Assembly (NCBI GenBank): GCA_013314735.1
Contig: JABUFD010000003.1
Coordinates: 434,001-498,000, forward strand
Length of the DNA stretch: 64,000 nt
Direction of reading: 5' to 3'
Source of the DNA: Anaerolineae bacterium
Lineage (GTDB): Bacteria; Chloroflexota; Anaerolineae; Anaerolineales; Anaerolineaceae
Shown in pieces: positions 1,984 to 9,616 of the stretch (positions are counted from its first letter, which is position 1; every line of letters begins with the position of its first letter). The notes beneath the pieces are model-generated. The model worked only from the letters and a program-made list of their open reading frames with translations. It had not been told where the DNA came from and ran no database searches. The position numbers and the translations under genes are program-made.

Positions 1984-2358
1984 TTACTGCGCCGTAATAG
2001 TATAGTCTGTCGGGCTGGCCCCCACTTCCCCGCGCACCTCGCCGAAGGCGGTGTATGTAGTTCTGGAAATCACATCCCCATCCTCATCCAATATCACCGA
2101 ACTGGATTGCAGATGGTCGAATGACCGGCTGCCGCCGCTCAAATGGGAGTTTTCGCGTTGTGAAAACTCCATCAAGGCAATACGCAGTATTGACTCGCGC
2201 ATGGCAAAACGGCCCGTGCCGCCGTGGTAATACATCACCTCGGTTTCGAGTTCGTTTTCATCCACCCGCAGCTCGTAATCATTGCCGAGGAAACATCTAG
2301 TCCCATTGGCATTATATAATACCCAAAAATATTGGAGGGAATTGGGGCTTCGATTCAT
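1984..2358 (-). pseudogene. RHS core remnant (copy D), truncated, no C-terminal domain
   Basis: A 124-aa frame. The first 24 or so residues are unrelated to RHS; then YELRVDENELETEV, YYHGGTGRFAMR, FDHLQSSSVILDE and TTYTAFGEVRGE match the RHS core of the three genes upstream. It stops right after PTDYT, before the GQRSYMDELGLMYYVARWYDP block and before any variable C-terminal domain. It starts at an ATG overlapping the previous lipoprotein stop (ATGA), so it may still be translated. Bases 2030-2208 match 3914-4092 with about nine differences and no gaps by eye, which points to recent duplication. It is best read as the decayed end of the array, with no predicted function of its own. Confidence 0.75.
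2000..2280 (-). repeat. RHS core repeat, copy D
   Basis: The conserved RHS core DNA begins at the GTATAGT corresponding to 3884 in copy C, 6072 in copy B and 8673 in copy A, and ends at the YELRV codons. The copy breaks exactly at the base where copies B and C carry their palindromic insert. Confidence 0.75.
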
Positions 2359-2945
2359 TGGTCTAGTAATCCAATAGGGATATCCAGGAATGCGCCAACA
2401 GGTTGTAGGTCGGTTTCATATTCACCCAACATAATTCCTTTGATCACTACTCGAATATAAGATGGTTCAAATTCATCATGCAAAACAGGGGGGTACACTT
2501 TCAGGGTGTCTGCATAATTGGGGCTTGAATTTCCAGTTAAAATGATTGTGGATGAGTTTTTTTGAGAAAAAGTGGGCATTATCTCAAAATAATCACATCG
2601 GTTTTGGGGCGTATGGGAAGTGGGCAAGTAATATCGGATATCATAATCTTCGGAGAATTTTATGTTAACACCTTCCTGAATTTTTAGCCCCAGAATTATT
2701 CGAGTGGTGCCAGTTTCAGCATAATAAAACTCCATCTCATTTTCTGCCAGTTCGACACTTAGATAAGAATTGACGTATTGATTGCTGATTTGGAAATAAT
2801 CTTCAATAAAATCATTATTGCTATATACACTGGCAACCTGCGTAACTTGGCTTATACAGGAGGGCAGATTGTCAGAAAATTCGTTCCTTGAACAACCACA
2901 TCCGCCTAATAAAATCAACACTATGAAAAACAGCTTGGCTTTCAT
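2355..2945 (-). CDS. Predicted lipoprotein 3 of the RHS array
   Basis: 196 aa from the ATG at 2945, chosen because it follows a GAGG ribosome site and opens a lipoprotein signal (MKAKLFFIVLILLGGCGC) with the lipidated cysteine in LLGGC/GGCGC. Reading further upstream adds 28 residues that do not look like a signal. The mature part is rich in Ser, Tyr, Asn and beta-type sequence with no family recognised. It starts 28 bases after the RHS copy C stop and its TGA overlaps the ATG of remnant D. Its DNA is clearly AT-richer than the RHS cores. By position it pairs with the copy C C-terminal domain; an immunity or partner role is inference only. Confidence 0.7.
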   Translation of the reverse strand: MKAKLFFIVLILLGGCGCSRNEFSDNLPSCISQVTQVASVYSNNDFIEDYFQISNQYVNSYLSVELAENEMEFYYAETGTTRIILGLKIQEGVNIKFSEDYDIRYYLPTSHTPQNRCDYFEIMPTFSQKNSSTIILTGNSSPNYADTLKVYPPVLHDEFEPSYIRVVIKGIMLGEYETDLQPVGAFLDIPIGLLDQ

Positions 2946-2973
2946 CAACTTTTCCTCACAGTTAAGTTTTAGA

Positions 2974-4146
2974 TTAAGGTAAACACGAGCCGGTGATGTT
3001 GAATGCAGCAAGTGACCATTGCTTTTCATACATAAATGTTGGATCGTGGTAGAGTTGAATATTAAAATTGATATTTACATCATTAGGGAATGAAAAATTT
3101 AACTTTTCGATATGGGTAGTGCCTGGCTCTAGGGATACGAAATGCTTATTTGAAACAATAAAACTATCATTATTAACAATAGCTTCATAATCAAACCTGG
3201 TGACATTTTGGTTTGACTGATTGTTAATAGAGAAATTATCTAAGGTCATCTTGTCGCTATACATTGAATATGTTAATGTGACGAACAGATCATCAGTTGA
3301 ATTTTTTAATGAAACAGAAATAAGAAAGGGCTGGATTTGTTCATAAAGAATATTAAGTAATTCGAAGATTCCAGCTACCACACTTAAATCACTAACTCCA
3401 TAATCGATATAGTCAGGCCCCGATACACCGCCATCATCAATATGAATTCCTGCAGGGTTAGGAATCGATAAATAAAAACTTTCAGTTAATGATGATGTGT
3501 TAACATAAAAAGAATCGTAATTGCCTATTTCGCATAAAAAACTAATATCATTACTTTCTATTGCCGTTTTAACCAAAAATTCTCCGGGTAAATAATCCCC
3601 ATCGATTAATGGATCCTGGTCTGTAGGATTGTAATATTCATGTCCACTCGGGTCATTGTACCGGACCGGGTTCCACAAAACGTACGCATATCGATCCCAA
3701 TCACCGGAATTGCCGGGCTGCGGGATCAGGCTGTCCGGCTGGATGAACTGGTTAAGATAAGGATCATACCAGCGCGCGACGTAGTACATCAGCCCCAGTT
3801 CATCCATGTACGACCGCTGGCCATGTGTACGAGTGAAAACCGTGACGGTTTTCACTTTAAAGTCAAAGCTGCGCTTTGACTCAGTATAATCCGTGGGACT
3901 TGTGCCTGTTGTGCCGCGCACCTCGCCGAAGGCGGTGTATGTAGTTCTGGAAATCACATCCCCGCCCTCGTCCAGGATCACTGAACTGGATTGCAGATGG
4001 TCGAATGACCGGCTGCCGCCGCTCAAATGGGAGTGCTCGCGTTGCGAAAACTCCATCAAGGCAATACGCAGTATTGACTCGCGCATGGCAAAGCGTCCCG
4101 TTGGGACTGTGTTGTAACTTAGTTCGGTTTGGGTGGTGGCTTTCAT
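2974..4146 (-). CDS. RHS core fragment (copy C) with a unique C-terminal domain
   Basis: 390 aa from the ATG at 4146, which overlaps the stop of the lipoprotein before it (TAATG). A TTG 15 bases upstream is possible but less likely. The first 15 residues are unrelated; then comes the RHS core from TGRFAMR through DHLQSSSVILDE, TTYTAFGEVRG, GQRSYMDELGLMYYVARW, FIQPDSLIPQPGN, DRYAYVLWNPVRY and DPSGH (about residue 165). An 18-residue insert between TDYT and GQRS is encoded by two palindromes. After DPSGH and a shared DPLIDGD, about 215 residues form a unique AT-rich domain with no motif recognised. There is no signal peptide and no N-terminal YD-repeat shell, so it resembles an orphan rhs tip module rather than a full RHS protein. 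Confidence 0.75.
   Translation of the reverse strand: MKATTQTELSYNTVPTGRFAMRESILRIALMEFSQREHSHLSGGSRSFDHLQSSSVILDEGGDVISRTTYTAFGEVRGTTGTSPTDYTESKRSFDFKVKTVTVFTRTHGQRSYMDELGLMYYVARWYDPYLNQFIQPDSLIPQPGNSGDWDRYAYVLWNPVRYNDPSGHEYYNPTDQDPLIDGDYLPGEFLVKTAIESNDISFLCEIGNYDSFYVNTSSLTESFYLSIPNPAGIHIDDGGVSGPDYIDYGVSDLSVVAGIFELLNILYEQIQPFLISVSLKNSTDDLFVTLTYSMYSDKMTLDNFSINNQSNQNVTRFDYEAIVNNDSFIVSNKHFVSLEPGTTHIEKLNFSFPNDVNINFNIQLYHDPTFMYEKQWSLAAFNITGSCLP
3640..4105 (-). repeat. RHS core repeat, copy C
   Basis: Runs from the DPSGH codons (3640) to the TGRFAMR codons. It is highly similar at DNA level to copy D over 3914-4092 and to copy B over about 3640-3945, including the palindromic insert. Confidence 0.8.
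3823..3883. repeat. Double-palindrome insert in RHS copy C
   Basis: 61 bases stand where copy A has 7 (8666-8672), a net gain of 54 bases or 18 codons, so the frame is kept. It holds two hairpins: 3833-3855, 11-base perfect arms GTGAAAACCGT around a single base, and 3861-3881, 9-base perfect arms AGTCAAAGC around TGC. The same insert is at 6011-6071. It is reminiscent in behaviour, not in sequence, of the in-frame palindromic elements described in Rickettsia. Confidence 0.75.
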
Positions 4147-5138
4147 TAATGGATAATCCAATATGGAGAATAACCATCCTGAATGATCTCCGTTTCCTGT
4201 TTCGTAGTGAAGTCGTACAGGTAGATATTGTTCTGATCAGGGACAGCTTCATTATTGGGTGAATATGGTGACTGTTGACTTATACTGTATACGATCTGGT
4301 TTCCATCTGGTGACCAGGATGCAATCGGCACATACTTAGAGAAATAAAAGTTATAGGTGTTCCAGCCAGAAAATTGCGAAGCCCATCGGATATCGACAAT
4401 CTTCTCTATTTGCTCTGTCTGAAATGTATACACATAGATTCCATCTTTTTTGGTGAAGGCAACCCGTTCACCGGTGGGTGAGATAGCCGGTGCCATGATC
4501 AAATCCGTTGTGAAAATTGTCGTGATTTCACCCGTATCAAGCTCTAACGATTTTAACGCATGGTTTCCGTCTGGCTGCATATCTTGATAATAAATCTTCC
4601 CATCATATTCGCTATTTGTTCCCAGAAAACACTTATTGATGTTTTTTGCCTCTTTATCATTAATGGATAGAATCATTAAAACCTCATATAAGCCTGCCTC
4701 GGTATACTTTGCAAGTACCAAATCTCCATCCATTTCTTTCCCTCCCTGGATTACGGTTAAATAAGAGACATACATAACCGATTCTCCTCCATCTAAAAAT
4801 GAAGCCATATCACACCGATCAAAGTTGTAACCGACTAATTTCGATCCCTGACTATCGACCAAACCGACAGAAAAATCTGGTTGATAAGAATGATACAACA
4901 GGATCGACGTTCGAGAAGCAAATGAGAATCGATGCCAGGAATCTGCCTGAACTTTATCGATTTTATGGTTGTCTACTCGATAAAGACCTAATGCTCCTTC
5001 CTCAGTGCTGAACACAATATCAGTATCATCTAGCTGTTCCTGCATATCTATTGAAAGCGTACGAATTCGATATGTGCAGGAACCAAAAAGGCAAGCCAAA
5101 AGTAGGATGAGGAAAATGTGACTCAACTTAATTTTCAT
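4146..5138 (-). CDS. Predicted beta-propeller lipoprotein 2 of the RHS array
   Basis: 330 aa from the ATG at 5138, which overlaps the RHS copy B stop (TAATG) and follows a GGTGGGAAAAG ribosome site. The signal MKIKLSHIFLILLLACLFGSC ends in a lipobox, predicting an anchor on the outer face of the membrane. The C-terminal half shows TolB/WD40-like blades: AISPTGERVAFTKKDGIYVY (about residues 227-246), IASWSPDGNQIVYSIS and NNIYLYDFTTKQETEI. The DNA is AT-rich relative to the neighbouring core repeats. By position it partners the C39-like domain encoded just before it. Immunity protein, receptor or substrate are all possible; none is proven by sequence. Confidence 0.75.
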   Translation of the reverse strand: MKIKLSHIFLILLLACLFGSCTYRIRTLSIDMQEQLDDTDIVFSTEEGALGLYRVDNHKIDKVQADSWHRFSFASRTSILLYHSYQPDFSVGLVDSQGSKLVGYNFDRCDMASFLDGGESVMYVSYLTVIQGGKEMDGDLVLAKYTEAGLYEVLMILSINDKEAKNINKCFLGTNSEYDGKIYYQDMQPDGNHALKSLELDTGEITTIFTTDLIMAPAISPTGERVAFTKKDGIYVYTFQTEQIEKIVDIRWASQFSGWNTYNFYFSKYVPIASWSPDGNQIVYSISQQSPYSPNNEAVPDQNNIYLYDFTTKQETEIIQDGYSPYWIIH

Positions 5139-6274
5139 TACTTTTCCCACCAAAGTTCCCGATAACTTATCATCATTCCATGCAACCCAAACGGTTTAGC
5201 GAAATCCTGGTTGAAAACAGTTCTACTATAGCGAGAAATTTCAGTGTCATCAGCTGGATCCATAACAAATATGTTATAGGGATCATAGCCAACTACATTC
5301 ACATAATGAAGACTTTCCTGCATATTCAGCACTACCGTCACCGGATTGCGTGTTTCGTTCAGCCGGTTAATGACATCATCGATTGAATTGTTGTATGAAA
5401 AATGGGCAATGCCGGAGATTTGTTCAGAATAAGCCGAATATAAGTTGTAAAAAGCAGCGACACCCCATGGAAAGGTTGCTCCTTTTGTATCTCCAAATTT
5501 CCATATTGGAATATTTAAAGGCAGTCTGGCTAGTGATAATGTCATTGGCGCAGCAAGATCGTCGATAGTAACAAAGGAGTTGTTTTGTGCCATATAGTTC
5601 ATGACCATTGCCAGTGCTGCCACTCCACATTCATTGATGCCTTGTTTCATTAAATAATTTTCAGCATCTCTCAAATGATAGGAGGCATTATATAGTAGAT
5701 CGTATTGGTCATCCGGGCTGAATGTAGATGATGCACTCCCTCTATTTGTCGGAGTATTGAGGATATACTCTTGAAGAATGGGATCGCCATCGATAAGCGG
5801 TATGTTATCATTTGGTATCTCCAGCACATGTCCACTCGGGTCGCTGTACCGGACCGGGTTCCACAGCACATAAGCATATCTGTCCCAATCGGCAGAATTG
5901 CCGGGCTGCGGGATGAGGCTGTCCGGCTGGATGAACTGGTTAAGAGATGGATCATACCAGCGCGCGACGTAGTACATCAACCCCAGTTCATCCATGTACG
6001 AACGCTGGCCATGTGTACGAGTGAAAACCGTGACGGTTTTCACTTTAAAGCCAAAGCTGCGCTTTGACTCGGTATAATCCGTGGGACTTGTTCCCGTTTC
6101 TTTGCGCACCTCGCCAAAAGCGGTGTATGTCGTCGCACTCACCACATCCCCTCCGTCATACACCCGAATGGCAAAGCGCATCGCAGGGCTGGTGTGATAT
6201 TTCGACCAAAATTTGGTTGTAGTATCCATTTTTAATTGGTCACCCTCCACGGAAAACTCGCCTGGCGAAAACAT
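5138..6274 (-). CDS. RHS core fragment (copy B) with a C39-like cysteine peptidase domain
   Basis: 378 aa if the ATG at 6274 is used. A later ATG (about residue 16) has a better-looking but distant GGAGGG site, so the start is uncertain. RHS core: GGDVVSATTYTAFGEVRKE, the 18-residue palindrome-encoded insert, GQRSYMDELGLMYYVARW, FIQPDSLIPQPGN, NPVRYSDPSGH (to about residue 150). The DHLQSSSVILDE part found in the other copies is deleted. The tip has papain-like C39 features: catalytic Cys in GINECGVAALAMVMNYM (about residue 216), His in ESLHYVNVVGYD and Asp in FVMDPADD. It may cleave peptides or process the RHS protein itself. It lacks a signal peptide and the N-terminal shell, and it is translationally coupled to the lipoprotein that follows. 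Confidence 0.8.
   Translation of the reverse strand: MFSPGEFSVEGDQLKMDTTTKFWSKYHTSPAMRFAIRVYDGGDVVSATTYTAFGEVRKETGTSPTDYTESKRSFGFKVKTVTVFTRTHGQRSYMDELGLMYYVARWYDPSLNQFIQPDSLIPQPGNSADWDRYAYVLWNPVRYSDPSGHVLEIPNDNIPLIDGDPILQEYILNTPTNRGSASSTFSPDDQYDLLYNASYHLRDAENYLMKQGINECGVAALAMVMNYMAQNNSFVTIDDLAAPMTLSLARLPLNIPIWKFGDTKGATFPWGVAAFYNLYSAYSEQISGIAHFSYNNSIDDVINRLNETRNPVTVVLNMQESLHYVNVVGYDPYNIFVMDPADDTEISRYSRTVFNQDFAKPFGLHGMMISYRELWWEK
5828..6182 (-). repeat. RHS core repeat, copy B
   Basis: From the DPSGH codons at 5828 to the RFAIRVYDGGDV codons. Compared with copy C it has lost the section from FAMRES to SVILDE, but keeps the insert and everything toward the variable tip. Confidence 0.8.
6011..6071. 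repeat. Double-palindrome insert in RHS copy B
   Basis: Same position and length as 3823-3883. The first hairpin (6021-6043, arms GTGAAAACCGT) is perfect. The second (6049-6069, AGCCAAAGC / GCTTTGACT) has one mismatch, where copy C is perfect. Confidence 0.75.
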
Positions 6275-6284
6275 TCAACAAAAA

Positions 6285-7778
6285 TTATGGACTCCATATC
6301 CCCAAGGGGCTATAAAAATAGTAGTTATTGATGAAGAAGTAAGAACCAGTTTCCAGATCATACATCATTAGCCGCGGGTGATCATCAGCTCTTTGTACAT
6401 AGAATACAATAAATTTGTTTGAATTCGACCATTGGGCAAACTCTACTTCTTCTCTCGCCATGTAACTGGCGGATTCGTCGACTACAATGAGCATTTCTTC
6501 GACAGCATCAGTGACACAGTCAATCTCATTTGTCACAAATGAATATAAACAATATCCACCAGCCGTAGACAATACATATTCGCCAGTTGTTCCAGTTCCA
6601 AAATAACTAAATCCCAATACATCTATTGAGGAAATATAGGTTAAATTATTAATAAACACTTGGTGTAAGTCAAATAATTCATGATGCTGAAAATACTCAT
6701 CAATAACAGCCAATTTCTCTGTCGTCTTTTTGTCCATGCTGTAAATGAAAATTTCGGTTCCCGTTGCATTATCTAATGAATAGAAATCCCATATACTGAT
6801 TGGGTTAAAATAGAATTCGTCCCCCTTGGAATTCCAGGCTCGTTCTTGCCCCAGACCGATTTTCGGCAGCTCTTGAACGATCGAGCCATCTGATATATCA
6901 ATAATGTAATCACCGATTTCAACCAGCGTATTACTATTTGGCAGCCAATTCACAAAAGGCCGATCTACATCAATCTCTTGAATATCATATGAAATTTCTC
7001 GTTGTTTGTGGAAATCATAACCATTAACTTGTATGAAATTCCCAAAACGGTCCTCTTTGAGTTTCACATCAAAGATATAGAATTGCTCATTGGGAGAAAT
7101 ATTTTTTGAATAGTCATATCCAAAGTCACCAATATTTTGCGGGATGAAATAAGCTTCACCATTAATGAGGACAATCTTTTTGACCGGGTATGCACGATCT
7201 GACGCACTGGTAGGTTCGCCTTCAGGAAAAGATTCAACAGCAAACAGTTTAGCTTCCCGTGAAATCGGGTAGCTAACAATTGTTCCAGATGAAAAACCAA
7301 GAATTGAATACTCATCAAAGATTGGATTTACCCATCCGATTCCACGTTCAGGTTCAGTTACCCAAAAATATGCTTTTATCTCTTTTTCCCTGATGGAAAA
7401 TAGAAAAATCTCTTGTGATATGGGATTCACAATTGCGAGATGCCGTTCCCCATTCTCATCCGGCGCAATGCACAAGTATAATTCGCTGTTCGCATTTTTC
7501 ACCCAATCAGGCAGAATTACAGGATTCTTTGTTGCTGTCGGTACTACCGATTCTGTCGGTATGATTGTAGCTGTTGCAACCGGCTGTGGTGTTGCGGCTT
7601 TTGTTGTCGCTTCTGTTTGAGAATTTCCCAATGCTGTGGAATATTGAGGGGTGGTTGTCGGATTTTCCTGGCTTGTCGGTATGTTAGGTGATTCTGCATC
7701 ATTTACAAACCGACATGAACCAATCAGCAGGAACAAGATAAGTCCCAATACGAGAGTTATTCCTTTACTTTTATGCAT
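6285..7778 (-). CDS. Predicted beta-propeller-like lipoprotein 1 of the RHS array
   Basis: 497 aa. MHKSKGITLVLGLILFLLIG leads to a lipobox cysteine (LLIGSC), followed by a Thr/Pro/Ala stalk (about residues 30-90) and a large domain of repeated beta segments such as GERHLAIVNPISQEIFLFSI, KGDEFYFNPISIWDFYSL, NSNKFIVFYVQ and RLMMYDLETGSYFF, suggesting a divergent propeller. The ATG at 7778 is two bases after the RHS copy A stop, with its AGGA ribosome site inside the end of that gene, so the two are probably co-translated. The DNA is AT-rich. By position it pairs with the metallopeptidase-like tip of copy A. Its role as inhibitor or partner is inference. Confidence 0.72.
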   Translation of the reverse strand: MHKSKGITLVLGLILFLLIGSCRFVNDAESPNIPTSQENPTTTPQYSTALGNSQTEATTKAATPQPVATATIIPTESVVPTATKNPVILPDWVKNANSELYLCIAPDENGERHLAIVNPISQEIFLFSIREKEIKAYFWVTEPERGIGWVNPIFDEYSILGFSSGTIVSYPISREAKLFAVESFPEGEPTSASDRAYPVKKIVLINGEAYFIPQNIGDFGYDYSKNISPNEQFYIFDVKLKEDRFGNFIQVNGYDFHKQREISYDIQEIDVDRPFVNWLPNSNTLVEIGDYIIDISDGSIVQELPKIGLGQERAWNSKGDEFYFNPISIWDFYSLDNATGTEIFIYSMDKKTTEKLAVIDEYFQHHELFDLHQVFINNLTYISSIDVLGFSYFGTGTTGEYVLSTAGGYCLYSFVTNEIDCVTDAVEEMLIVVDESASYMAREEVEFAQWSNSNKFIVFYVQRADDHPRLMMYDLETGSYFFINNYYFYSPLGIWSP

Positions 7779-7780
7779 AT

Positions 7781-9616
7781 TTAATATCCTACATAGCTCC
7801 GAATTTTCGAATTCATGAATGTCATTCGGCGTGCGCCTTCATTAACAGTCAGATCGTAACGATTATAGGTCCATGCGATAAACATATCGGCAAATGCCTC
7901 TCGTCGACGATCGTATTTATCCACTTGTCTATGTTGAACCCAGATGTGTTCGCCTGCTGAAGTGCTATTATCCAAGCCAACAAGTGAAGTCCTATAAGGT
8001 TCTTCAATCCACAAATCTGAGTCAAGCCCTGTGACGCCCATATCGTTAAATACGTTTTCGGTAAGGAGTAAATGTCCCAACTCATGTACAACGAGATTTC
8101 GATTCATTAATGCTGCCATACCATTTTCACGAAATTGGGTACTGTAAAATCCATAGAAAGTAATTTCGTTAGATGGTCCTCCTAAACACTGCCCCCCAGC
8201 CCCAGCTAAACCTTTCGTAAAGGTTACATGGTCATAGGCATTAATAAATGCTTCCTGACTGCTACCAGCTCCTGTTACTTCTTGGAATCTCTTTCCAACA
8301 TCGGATACCGCAGTATGTAAAGCCACCAGTTCTGATGTTTTCCAGGTGTCCGTGGTTCCTGCCTTGATTCTCACGTTGTACTTTAACAAACCTAACCAAC
8401 TACTCGCATACGTGTCATATCCCCCACTCGCAATTTTGTTCACACCTCTTGTAAGAGGATCATCTCCCTCAATCTGTGGAATATACCCTGTTGGATCAGA
8501 TAACAATATGGGGTTGAAAAACACATAGGCATATCGGTCCCAACTAGCAGAATTTCCTGGATTGGGTACAAATGAATCCGCCTGGCAAAAGTGCGCCAAA
8601 ACGGGATCATACCAGCGCGCGACGTAGTACATCAACCCCAGTTCATCCATGTACGAACGCTGGCCAGTAAAAGTATAATCCGTGGGACTTGTGCCTGTTT
8701 CTTTGCGAACCTCACCAAACGCTGTATAACTCGTTTTGCTGTACACATCGCCATTCTCTTCCAGGATGACACTGGAAGATTGCAGGTGGTCGGTAAATAT
8801 CCAGTACAGCTCATTCGTCAGGGCGGTCCGGGTGCGCATCGCAAAACGGCCTGTACCGCCGTGGTAATACAGCACCTCGGTTTCGAGTTCGTTTTCATCC
8901 ACCCGCAGCTCGTAATACCCGCCAACATAGTAAGTGGTCACCCCATCCATCTCACTCTTGACCATGACCCCATTGCCGTCATACGTGTAGGCGATGGCGG
9001 AAAAACTCGCCATGCCTGCCGCTTCCGGCGTGGGGGAGGCTTCCGTCGTTTCGGTTGGCGTAAAGGTGGCGGAAGGCGTGGGCGTCTCCGTTTCCGTTGG
9101 AACAATCTCCTGAGTGGCGGTTGGGGTTGGCGAAGGTTCCAGCGTTTCGGTCGGGGTCGGTTCCACCGTTTCGGTGGGAGTCAACGCCAACGTCGGGGTG
9201 AGGGAAACCGCCGGCGTTTCGGTGGGGGTGGTTTCCTGGGTTTCGGGGGGGGACAACTCGGGGGTCCACGTAAGAGTGGGTTCTGCTGTTTCCGTTGGTG
9301 GAATTTCCAGCGTTTCGGTCGGGGTGAAAACCAGTGTCGCTGTCGGGGACGGTTCCGGCGTTTCCGTCAGGGTGGGTTCCGGTGTTTCGGATGGAATCGG
9401 GGTGGAAGTGAGGGTTTCCGTCGGAGTTTCGGTCACGGTCGGGGTTTCTGTGGGTTCCGGCGGAGCGGCTTCGGGTGTGGTGCGGGAAACCGCCACCAGG
9501 CGGTTCTCGTGAACATAGCTCAGGTTGTAGGTGTTGTCATCGATCACCCGCTCCACCTGGTTGCCGTTGGCATCGTATGTATATTCATTGTTGGTGAAAC
9601 TGCATTTGGTTTCCAC
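7781..9616 (-). CDS. RHS protein fragment (copy A) with PTE linker and zinc metallopeptidase tip
   Basis: 611 aa from a GTG at 9616 behind a weak GAAGGGG site. Order: a YD repeat (NEYTYDANGNQVERV and ENRLVAVSR, residues about 10-45); a Pro/Thr/Glu tract of about 160 residues; a second YD stretch (AYTYDGNGVMVKSEMDG); the core YELRVDENELETEV, TDHLQSSSVILEE, TSYTAFGEVRKE, GQRSYMDELGLMYYVARW, FFNPILLSDPTGY (to about residue 380); and a unique tip. The tip has VVHELGHLLL (first zinc His about 511) and REAFADMFIAW downstream, which may supply the third ligand, as in HExxH peptidases. It has no signal peptide and only a stub of the RHS shell, and it begins 31 bases after the galE stop, so the N-terminus has probably been lost. 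Confidence 0.78.
   Translation of the reverse strand: METKCSFTNNEYTYDANGNQVERVIDDNTYNLSYVHENRLVAVSRTTPEAAPPEPTETPTVTETPTETLTSTPIPSETPEPTLTETPEPSPTATLVFTPTETLEIPPTETAEPTLTWTPELSPPETQETTPTETPAVSLTPTLALTPTETVEPTPTETLEPSPTPTATQEIVPTETETPTPSATFTPTETTEASPTPEAAGMASFSAIAYTYDGNGVMVKSEMDGVTTYYVGGYYELRVDENELETEVLYYHGGTGRFAMRTRTALTNELYWIFTDHLQSSSVILEENGDVYSKTSYTAFGEVRKETGTSPTDYTFTGQRSYMDELGLMYYVARWYDPVLAHFCQADSFVPNPGNSASWDRYAYVFFNPILLSDPTGYIPQIEGDDPLTRGVNKIASGGYDTYASSWLGLLKYNVRIKAGTTDTWKTSELVALHTAVSDVGKRFQEVTGAGSSQEAFINAYDHVTFTKGLAGAGGQCLGGPSNEITFYGFYSTQFRENGMAALMNRNLVVHELGHLLLTENVFNDMGVTGLDSDLWIEEPYRTSLVGLDNSTSAGEHIWVQHRQVDKYDRRREAFADMFIAWTYNRYDLTVNEGARRMTFMNSKIRSYVGY
8482..8935 (-). repeat. RHS core repeat, copy A
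   Basis: From the DPTGY codons to the YELRV codons. It is the most divergent copy (FFNPILLSDPTGY in place of LWNPVRYSDPSGH) and lacks the palindromic insert, so it shows the uninterrupted state at 8666-8672. Confidence 0.75.

Follow-up and report, generated by a model that had tools for sequence, protein, structure and literature searches.

A tandem array of truncated RHS genes with variable tips and lipoprotein partners in an Anaerolineae genome, probably a row of orphan toxin-immunity modules

What is a row of truncated RHS genes, three of which end in different tips and are each followed by a lipoprotein gene, doing in a genome of the Anaerolineae? The window analysed here is a stretch of 64,000 nucleotides (contig C6, 434001-498000) from an assembly of 4.09 Mb in 13 contigs that is 95.5% complete. 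Its array is probably made of RHS polymorphic-toxin modules that have been displaced (orphans), a core end, a tip and a cognate lipoprotein immunity gene making up one module; we infer toxicity for the tips and immunity for their partners. The features of the array, in window positions, are listed below.

1984-9616, minus strand: the whole array of seven abutting ORFs, in the order A, p1, B, p2, C, p3, D
7781-9616, minus strand: copy A, a 5'-truncated RHS protein of 611 aa (ORF and TIGR03696), made up of a YD-type segment, a Thr/Pro-rich linker, the core (about 8483-8866) and a metallopeptidase-like tip (7784-8482)
6285-7778, minus strand: p1, partner of A, a 497-aa lipoprotein with a signal and lipobox LLIGSC, the remainder being a Thr/Pro linker and then a degenerate TolB-like beta-propeller (profile comparison)
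5138-6274, minus strand: copy B, an RHS core fragment with a C39-like cysteine peptidase tip (ORF and Pfam)
4146-5138, minus strand: p2, partner of B, a lipoprotein of about 330 aa with a TolB/DPPIV-like propeller; alternative opening at 5153
2974-4161, minus strand: copy C, an RHS core fragment with a tip without assigned activity; alternative start ATG at 4146
2355-2945, minus strand: p3, partner of C, a lipoprotein of about 196 aa with lipobox LLGGC; alternative opening at 3029
1984-2358, minus strand: remnant D, an RHS core fragment without a tip (ORF and core repeat)

The alternation of RHS core and lipoprotein genes described by the first-pass annotation is borne out: all seven ORFs lie where it had placed them, and the six junctions, read from the sequence, agree with it (2 nt from the stop of A to the ATG of p1, 10 nt from p1 to B, TAATG at both B/p2 and p2/C, 28 nt from C to p3, and ATGA at p3/D). 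The four copies of one core were recovered as pairwise repeats, with 91% identity over 300 nt between B and C, 85% over 248 nt between C and D and 95% over 83 nt between A and D; the scores of A, B and C against TIGR03696 exceed its cut-off, and D is a core fragment that ends before the DPxG border. The compositional difference also stands, the cores having a GC content of 0.50-0.55 as against 0.33-0.43 for the AT-rich tips and 0.38-0.40 for the lipoprotein genes. The statement that the tips differ completely after DPxG needs correction, as tips B and C and those of a second array in the same genome first have in common a segment of 15-20 aa (...NDxPLIDGD) and diverge beyond it. Since copy A opens 30 nt after the stop of galE, in the identical frame, it has a truncated head and is no full-length RHS gene.

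What was found in the three tips agrees with the types proposed for them. Tip A carries HELGH and a distal E-x-x-A-D, and the pattern HExxH...ExxAD is invariant in nine aligned sequences of the tip A type; Pfam gave no match for it. Its predicted structure (mean pLDDT 69.5) bears a weak likeness to zincins of the ATLF/PPEP type (PPEP-1/Zmp1; E 0.02 and weaker). An RHS core clearly precedes eight of ten relatives of tip A, and a ninth has a weak partial core match. Tip B matches Pfam Peptidase_C39_2 (4.7e-9). Tip C, which has no Pfam match, shows a weak relationship, 25% over 199 aa, to one tip of the second array. A scan of the genome collection with copy A returned no match, and close relatives of p1, p3 and tip C were not found in the genomes searched, so that those exact pairs are not demonstrable as travelling together. 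The concatenated tip and partner queries run over 400 genomes had two candidates scored per genome, and the missing relatives of p1 and p3 there are therefore not evidence of absence.

The same build is found again on contig C11 (locus L009), where three core-tip and partner pairs are accompanied by a remnant, and a lone core remnant lies at C6:162881 (locus L010). TIGR03696 matches eight places in the genome, every one of them a truncated copy, and RHS_repeat and TEN_YD-shell have zero matches in the 95.5%-complete genome. A full-length RHS carrier gene, upstream of the array or elsewhere, was not found in this assembly, which could still miss one; relatives do have such a gene.

Among those relatives, RHS core copies are present in many Anaerolineae genomes, with seven on contig 110 of G014 alone. 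Several contain full-length RHS frames of 2,371-2,999 aa, a signal-like hydrophobic N-terminus being recognizable by eye in seven of the eight inspected, and some orphan-like modules sit behind full-length RHS genes. A distinct same-strand gene directly follows 59 of 61 modules with a complete core end (median gap 2 nt), as it does in the window, where the spacing ranges from overlap to 28 nt. The partners match a strict lipobox in 24 of 61 cases, compared with 7 of 164 other ORFs (p 3e-10). In a tree of core sequences, the seven cores included from our genome form one clade (support 0.999), and seven cores of G021 do likewise; those of G014, G030 and G039 are not monophyletic per genome. This topology is as expected if some genomes duplicate or convert the core while the tips change, and is not proof of exchange.

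The kind of tip and the kind of partner go together. Lipoprotein partners accompany all 22 tips with HExxH (17), GxSxG-like (4) or C39 (1) motifs in a first sample versus 10 of 34 other tips (p 3e-8), a count that uses a relaxed lipobox rule set after seeing the misses of the strict one, and 8 of 10 motif tips versus 22 of 77 others in a second, largely separate sample (p 0.0025); since both samples contain related sequences, counted singly, these p-values are optimistic and overstate independence. The second sample was drawn by the core alone, with some loci from places in the first (for example L170 and L222), and part of the HExxH set came from tip searches rather than partner searches; lipobox and tip-motif calls were made by regular expressions. 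Tips outside the enzyme-motif classes more often have membrane or soluble partners. At L032 and L033, tips with GxSxG-like motifs, possibly lipases to judge from these motifs, each have a lipoprotein of about 400 aa behind them.

By profile comparison and motif, p1 and p2 are TolB-like propellers with a lipobox pattern, and their lipid anchoring is predicted: p2 matches Pfam DPPIV_N (2.5e-6) and PD40 (2e-5), and p1 aligns with the propeller profile (hhalign 96.7%). For p3 no family was found. HExxH tips are mostly partnered by another kind of lipoprotein, here called LPCW, which has the motif CxLPCWxGITPGxT and conserved cysteines; p1 falls outside it, its match being mainly in the linker. None of six LPCW members scanned rose above the cut-off of any Pfam family, and Foldseek comparison of the predicted LPCW structure (mean pLDDT 77.6) gave weak matches alone, including a putative beta-lactamase-inhibitor protein (E 0.077), and no confident one. 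The partner of tip B' of the second array belongs to LPCW (E 1.8e-16). B', an HExxH tip, has a relative at the end of a 2,681-aa RHS gene in G004, which is of another genus and where an LPCW member follows too, and the pair of a B'-type tip and an LPCW lipoprotein is found again in a further genome.

The first-pass annotation had asked whether each tip always travels with its own lipoprotein family. This holds for the family of tip A to the extent that it is usually found with LPCW, and fails for the tip A of the window, whose partner is a propeller lipoprotein; pairing is thus by partner class and not strictly by one family per tip. Partners free of tips had been expected to speak against the array being one of tip-immunity modules, and such partners exist in part. 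An order-wide LPCW search had an RHS core within 1.5 kb upstream at 15 of its best 30 loci, and with the seed loci removed a core lay just upstream, in the 1.5 kb inspected, at 7 of 21. Propeller lipoproteins occur behind RHS tips in other genomes too, though an RHS core is missing within 1.5 kb of most propeller relatives found. At L143 and L153, an LPCW lipoprotein directly follows a TolB-like propeller lipoprotein, an arrangement that suggests clusters of candidate immunity lipoproteins.

Translation signals are unevenly spread over the array. A Shine-Dalgarno-like site is present before A, p1 and p3 and is weak at best before p2; B, C and D have an ATG but no such site upstream, so that the start codon said to be kept by every module does not serve as a distinguishing feature. 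Across the genomes, a Shine-Dalgarno-like site precedes the chosen start of 26 of 59 partners versus the first ATG of 5 of 30 orphan RHS frames (p 0.011), against 9% at random positions. The overlapping stops TAATG and ATGA could allow coupled translation. In the orphan CDI and Rhs modules of Enterobacteria, as here, the toxin fragments mostly lack translation signals, and there the immunity genes have them (PMC3150448, PMC3967940).

The enterobacterial orphans rhs-CT/rhsI and cdiA-CT/cdiI also resemble our array in their tandem build of core fragment, new tip and immunity gene and in the DPxG border (PMC3150448, PMC3967940); they differ from it in that here the enzyme-type tips have lipoprotein partners, the carrier rhs gene was not found and the phylum is Chloroflexota. 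Polymorphic toxin systems, which are reported to be abundant in chloroflexi, likewise have the order of toxin then immunity gene, cassette arrays and RHS repeats; the account of them mentions lipoproteins once (PMC3482391), and the six LPCW members scanned here have no Pfam family above cut-off. Immunity proteins on the envelope side are known elsewhere, among them Tsi1 of Pseudomonas aeruginosa, a partial beta-propeller (PMC3391265), the lipobox-bearing X-Tfi protein XAC2610 (PMC10933484) and a lipoprotein-type immunity protein whose Salmonella effector is zinc-dependent (PMC12992299). Like the partners in our array these proteins are lipobox-bearing or propeller-like, and they are shown or proposed inhibitors of envelope-acting effectors, although the effectors that they go with are proteobacterial and of type VI or type IV, and the likeness drawn here is one of description, not of sequence or fold. 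In the type VI immunity arrays of Vibrio cholerae, as in our array, old immunity genes stay downstream as new modules arrive; there the old effectors are often lost and the immunity genes kept, whereas here the tips are kept too (PMC5361080). The kind of array is thus already known, and its partner families are unfamiliar; the open-access literature searched contained no paper on Rhs toxin-immunity in Anaerolineae.

Several cores are further interrupted by hairpin-forming inserts, as follows (loci L009 and L010 in their own numbering).

4003-4080, minus strand: 78-nt in-frame triple-hairpin insert in core C
2119-2196, minus strand: 78-nt in-frame triple-hairpin insert in core D
6011-6070, minus strand: 60-nt in-frame double-hairpin insert in core B
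3823-3882, minus strand: 60-nt in-frame double-hairpin insert in core C
L009, 4557-4634, 4674-4751, 6575-6652, 9092-9169 and 9209-9286: multi-hairpin inserts in the cores
L010, 5146-5223: multi-hairpin insert in the remnant

The 78-nt three-stem form is present in the L010 remnant and in C', D' and B' of L009 as well. The inserts occupy three core sites, the frame being kept at all of them, and are absent from the head copies A of the window and A' of L009. Their stems (8-9 bp, 11 bp and 8 bp, with small loops) are constant in geometry and vary in sequence, eight base pairs being changed on both sides, and so compensated, among seven of the 78-nt sequences; DNA folding z-scores are -3 to -12. 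The exact pattern has 11 matches in this genome and 0 in 40 relatives, and when 666 kb were scanned for the geometry, the form was almost confined to this genome. The genome also has weaker copies that are not part of RHS genes (L071 1501-1713, L075 1501-1570, L080 1501-1567 and L081 1501-1570), those of L071, L075 and L081 at or just past the ends of genes for large proteins that end in GRWTAYRTI.I. Neither ribosome bypassing nor a role as attC-like sites found support, and the hairpin family is also intergenic. That the inserts are folded-strand recognition sites aiding the movement or exchange of tip-immunity modules, and more than passive repeats, seems improbable to us.

Could the array simply be decaying debris, the unselected tail modules of a functional RHS locus that lost its carrier head? 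The full-length RHS gene that was not found, the opening of copy A right behind galE, the broken state of D and of the C6 remnant and the inserts in cores B, C and D are all as such decay would leave them. We nevertheless hold this to be unlikely: both arrays have long, uninterrupted reading frames for tips and partners, the catalytic motif of tip A is intact, none of the inserts at the three core sites shifts the frame, and dN/dS between core copies is 0.09-0.28, though this low value may be inherited from an earlier time inside full-length genes.

It is very improbable that the copies are stand-alone mini-RHS enzymes working in the cell's own nutrition or envelope rather than in conflict, with the lipoprotein as accessory or chaperone. 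TolB-like propeller and LPCW lipoproteins do occur away from RHS, and the tip A model is weakly like secreted zincins such as PPEP-1/Zmp1, but no export signal is evident in the truncated copies, the core is kept while the tips vary completely, and the partners of other tips are more often membrane or soluble proteins, unlike what a general accessory would show. We give next to no credence to the truncated copies being effectors of another delivery machine in this genome, such as a contractile injection system: RHS repeats are indeed part of toxins attributed to several routes of export, contractile systems included (PMC3482391), but the phage-sheath-type protein PF04984 was not found in the genome by a search that was positive in three control genomes.

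The reading as an orphan tip-immunity array with lipoprotein partners, which the first-pass annotation had put forward, is strengthened by the recurrence of its build in the second array and in many Anaerolineae, by a partner class that tracks tip class, and by the recurrence of one metallopeptidase tip and lipoprotein pair across genera. The route would begin, in relatives, with the export of an RHS protein about 2,400-3,000 aa long that in most cases opens with a Sec-signal-like segment and displays one tip. An incoming tip and immunity cassette would recombine in the common core and become the new end of the carrier gene, displacing the previous tip, together with its immunity gene, to a downstream position; the outcome would be a row of core-tip-immunity, core-tip-immunity. 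A tip acting on extracellular proteins or lipids would have to be countered outside the membrane, and its partner would therefore be a lipoprotein that inhibits it there. As no carrier RHS gene was found here, the most likely use of the array is immunity, through expression of the partner genes, together with a reserve of tips for a carrier that transfer might bring back.

Altogether, orphan RHS arrays are a recurrent feature of Anaerolineae, and the predicted localisation of the partner is tied to the chemistry of the tip in two samples. The LPCW and TolB-like propeller lipoproteins are testable candidate immunity proteins for envelope-acting tips, and a genome where tips and immunity genes persist though no carrier was found would be a natural place to ask if immunity alone is what maintains orphan arrays.
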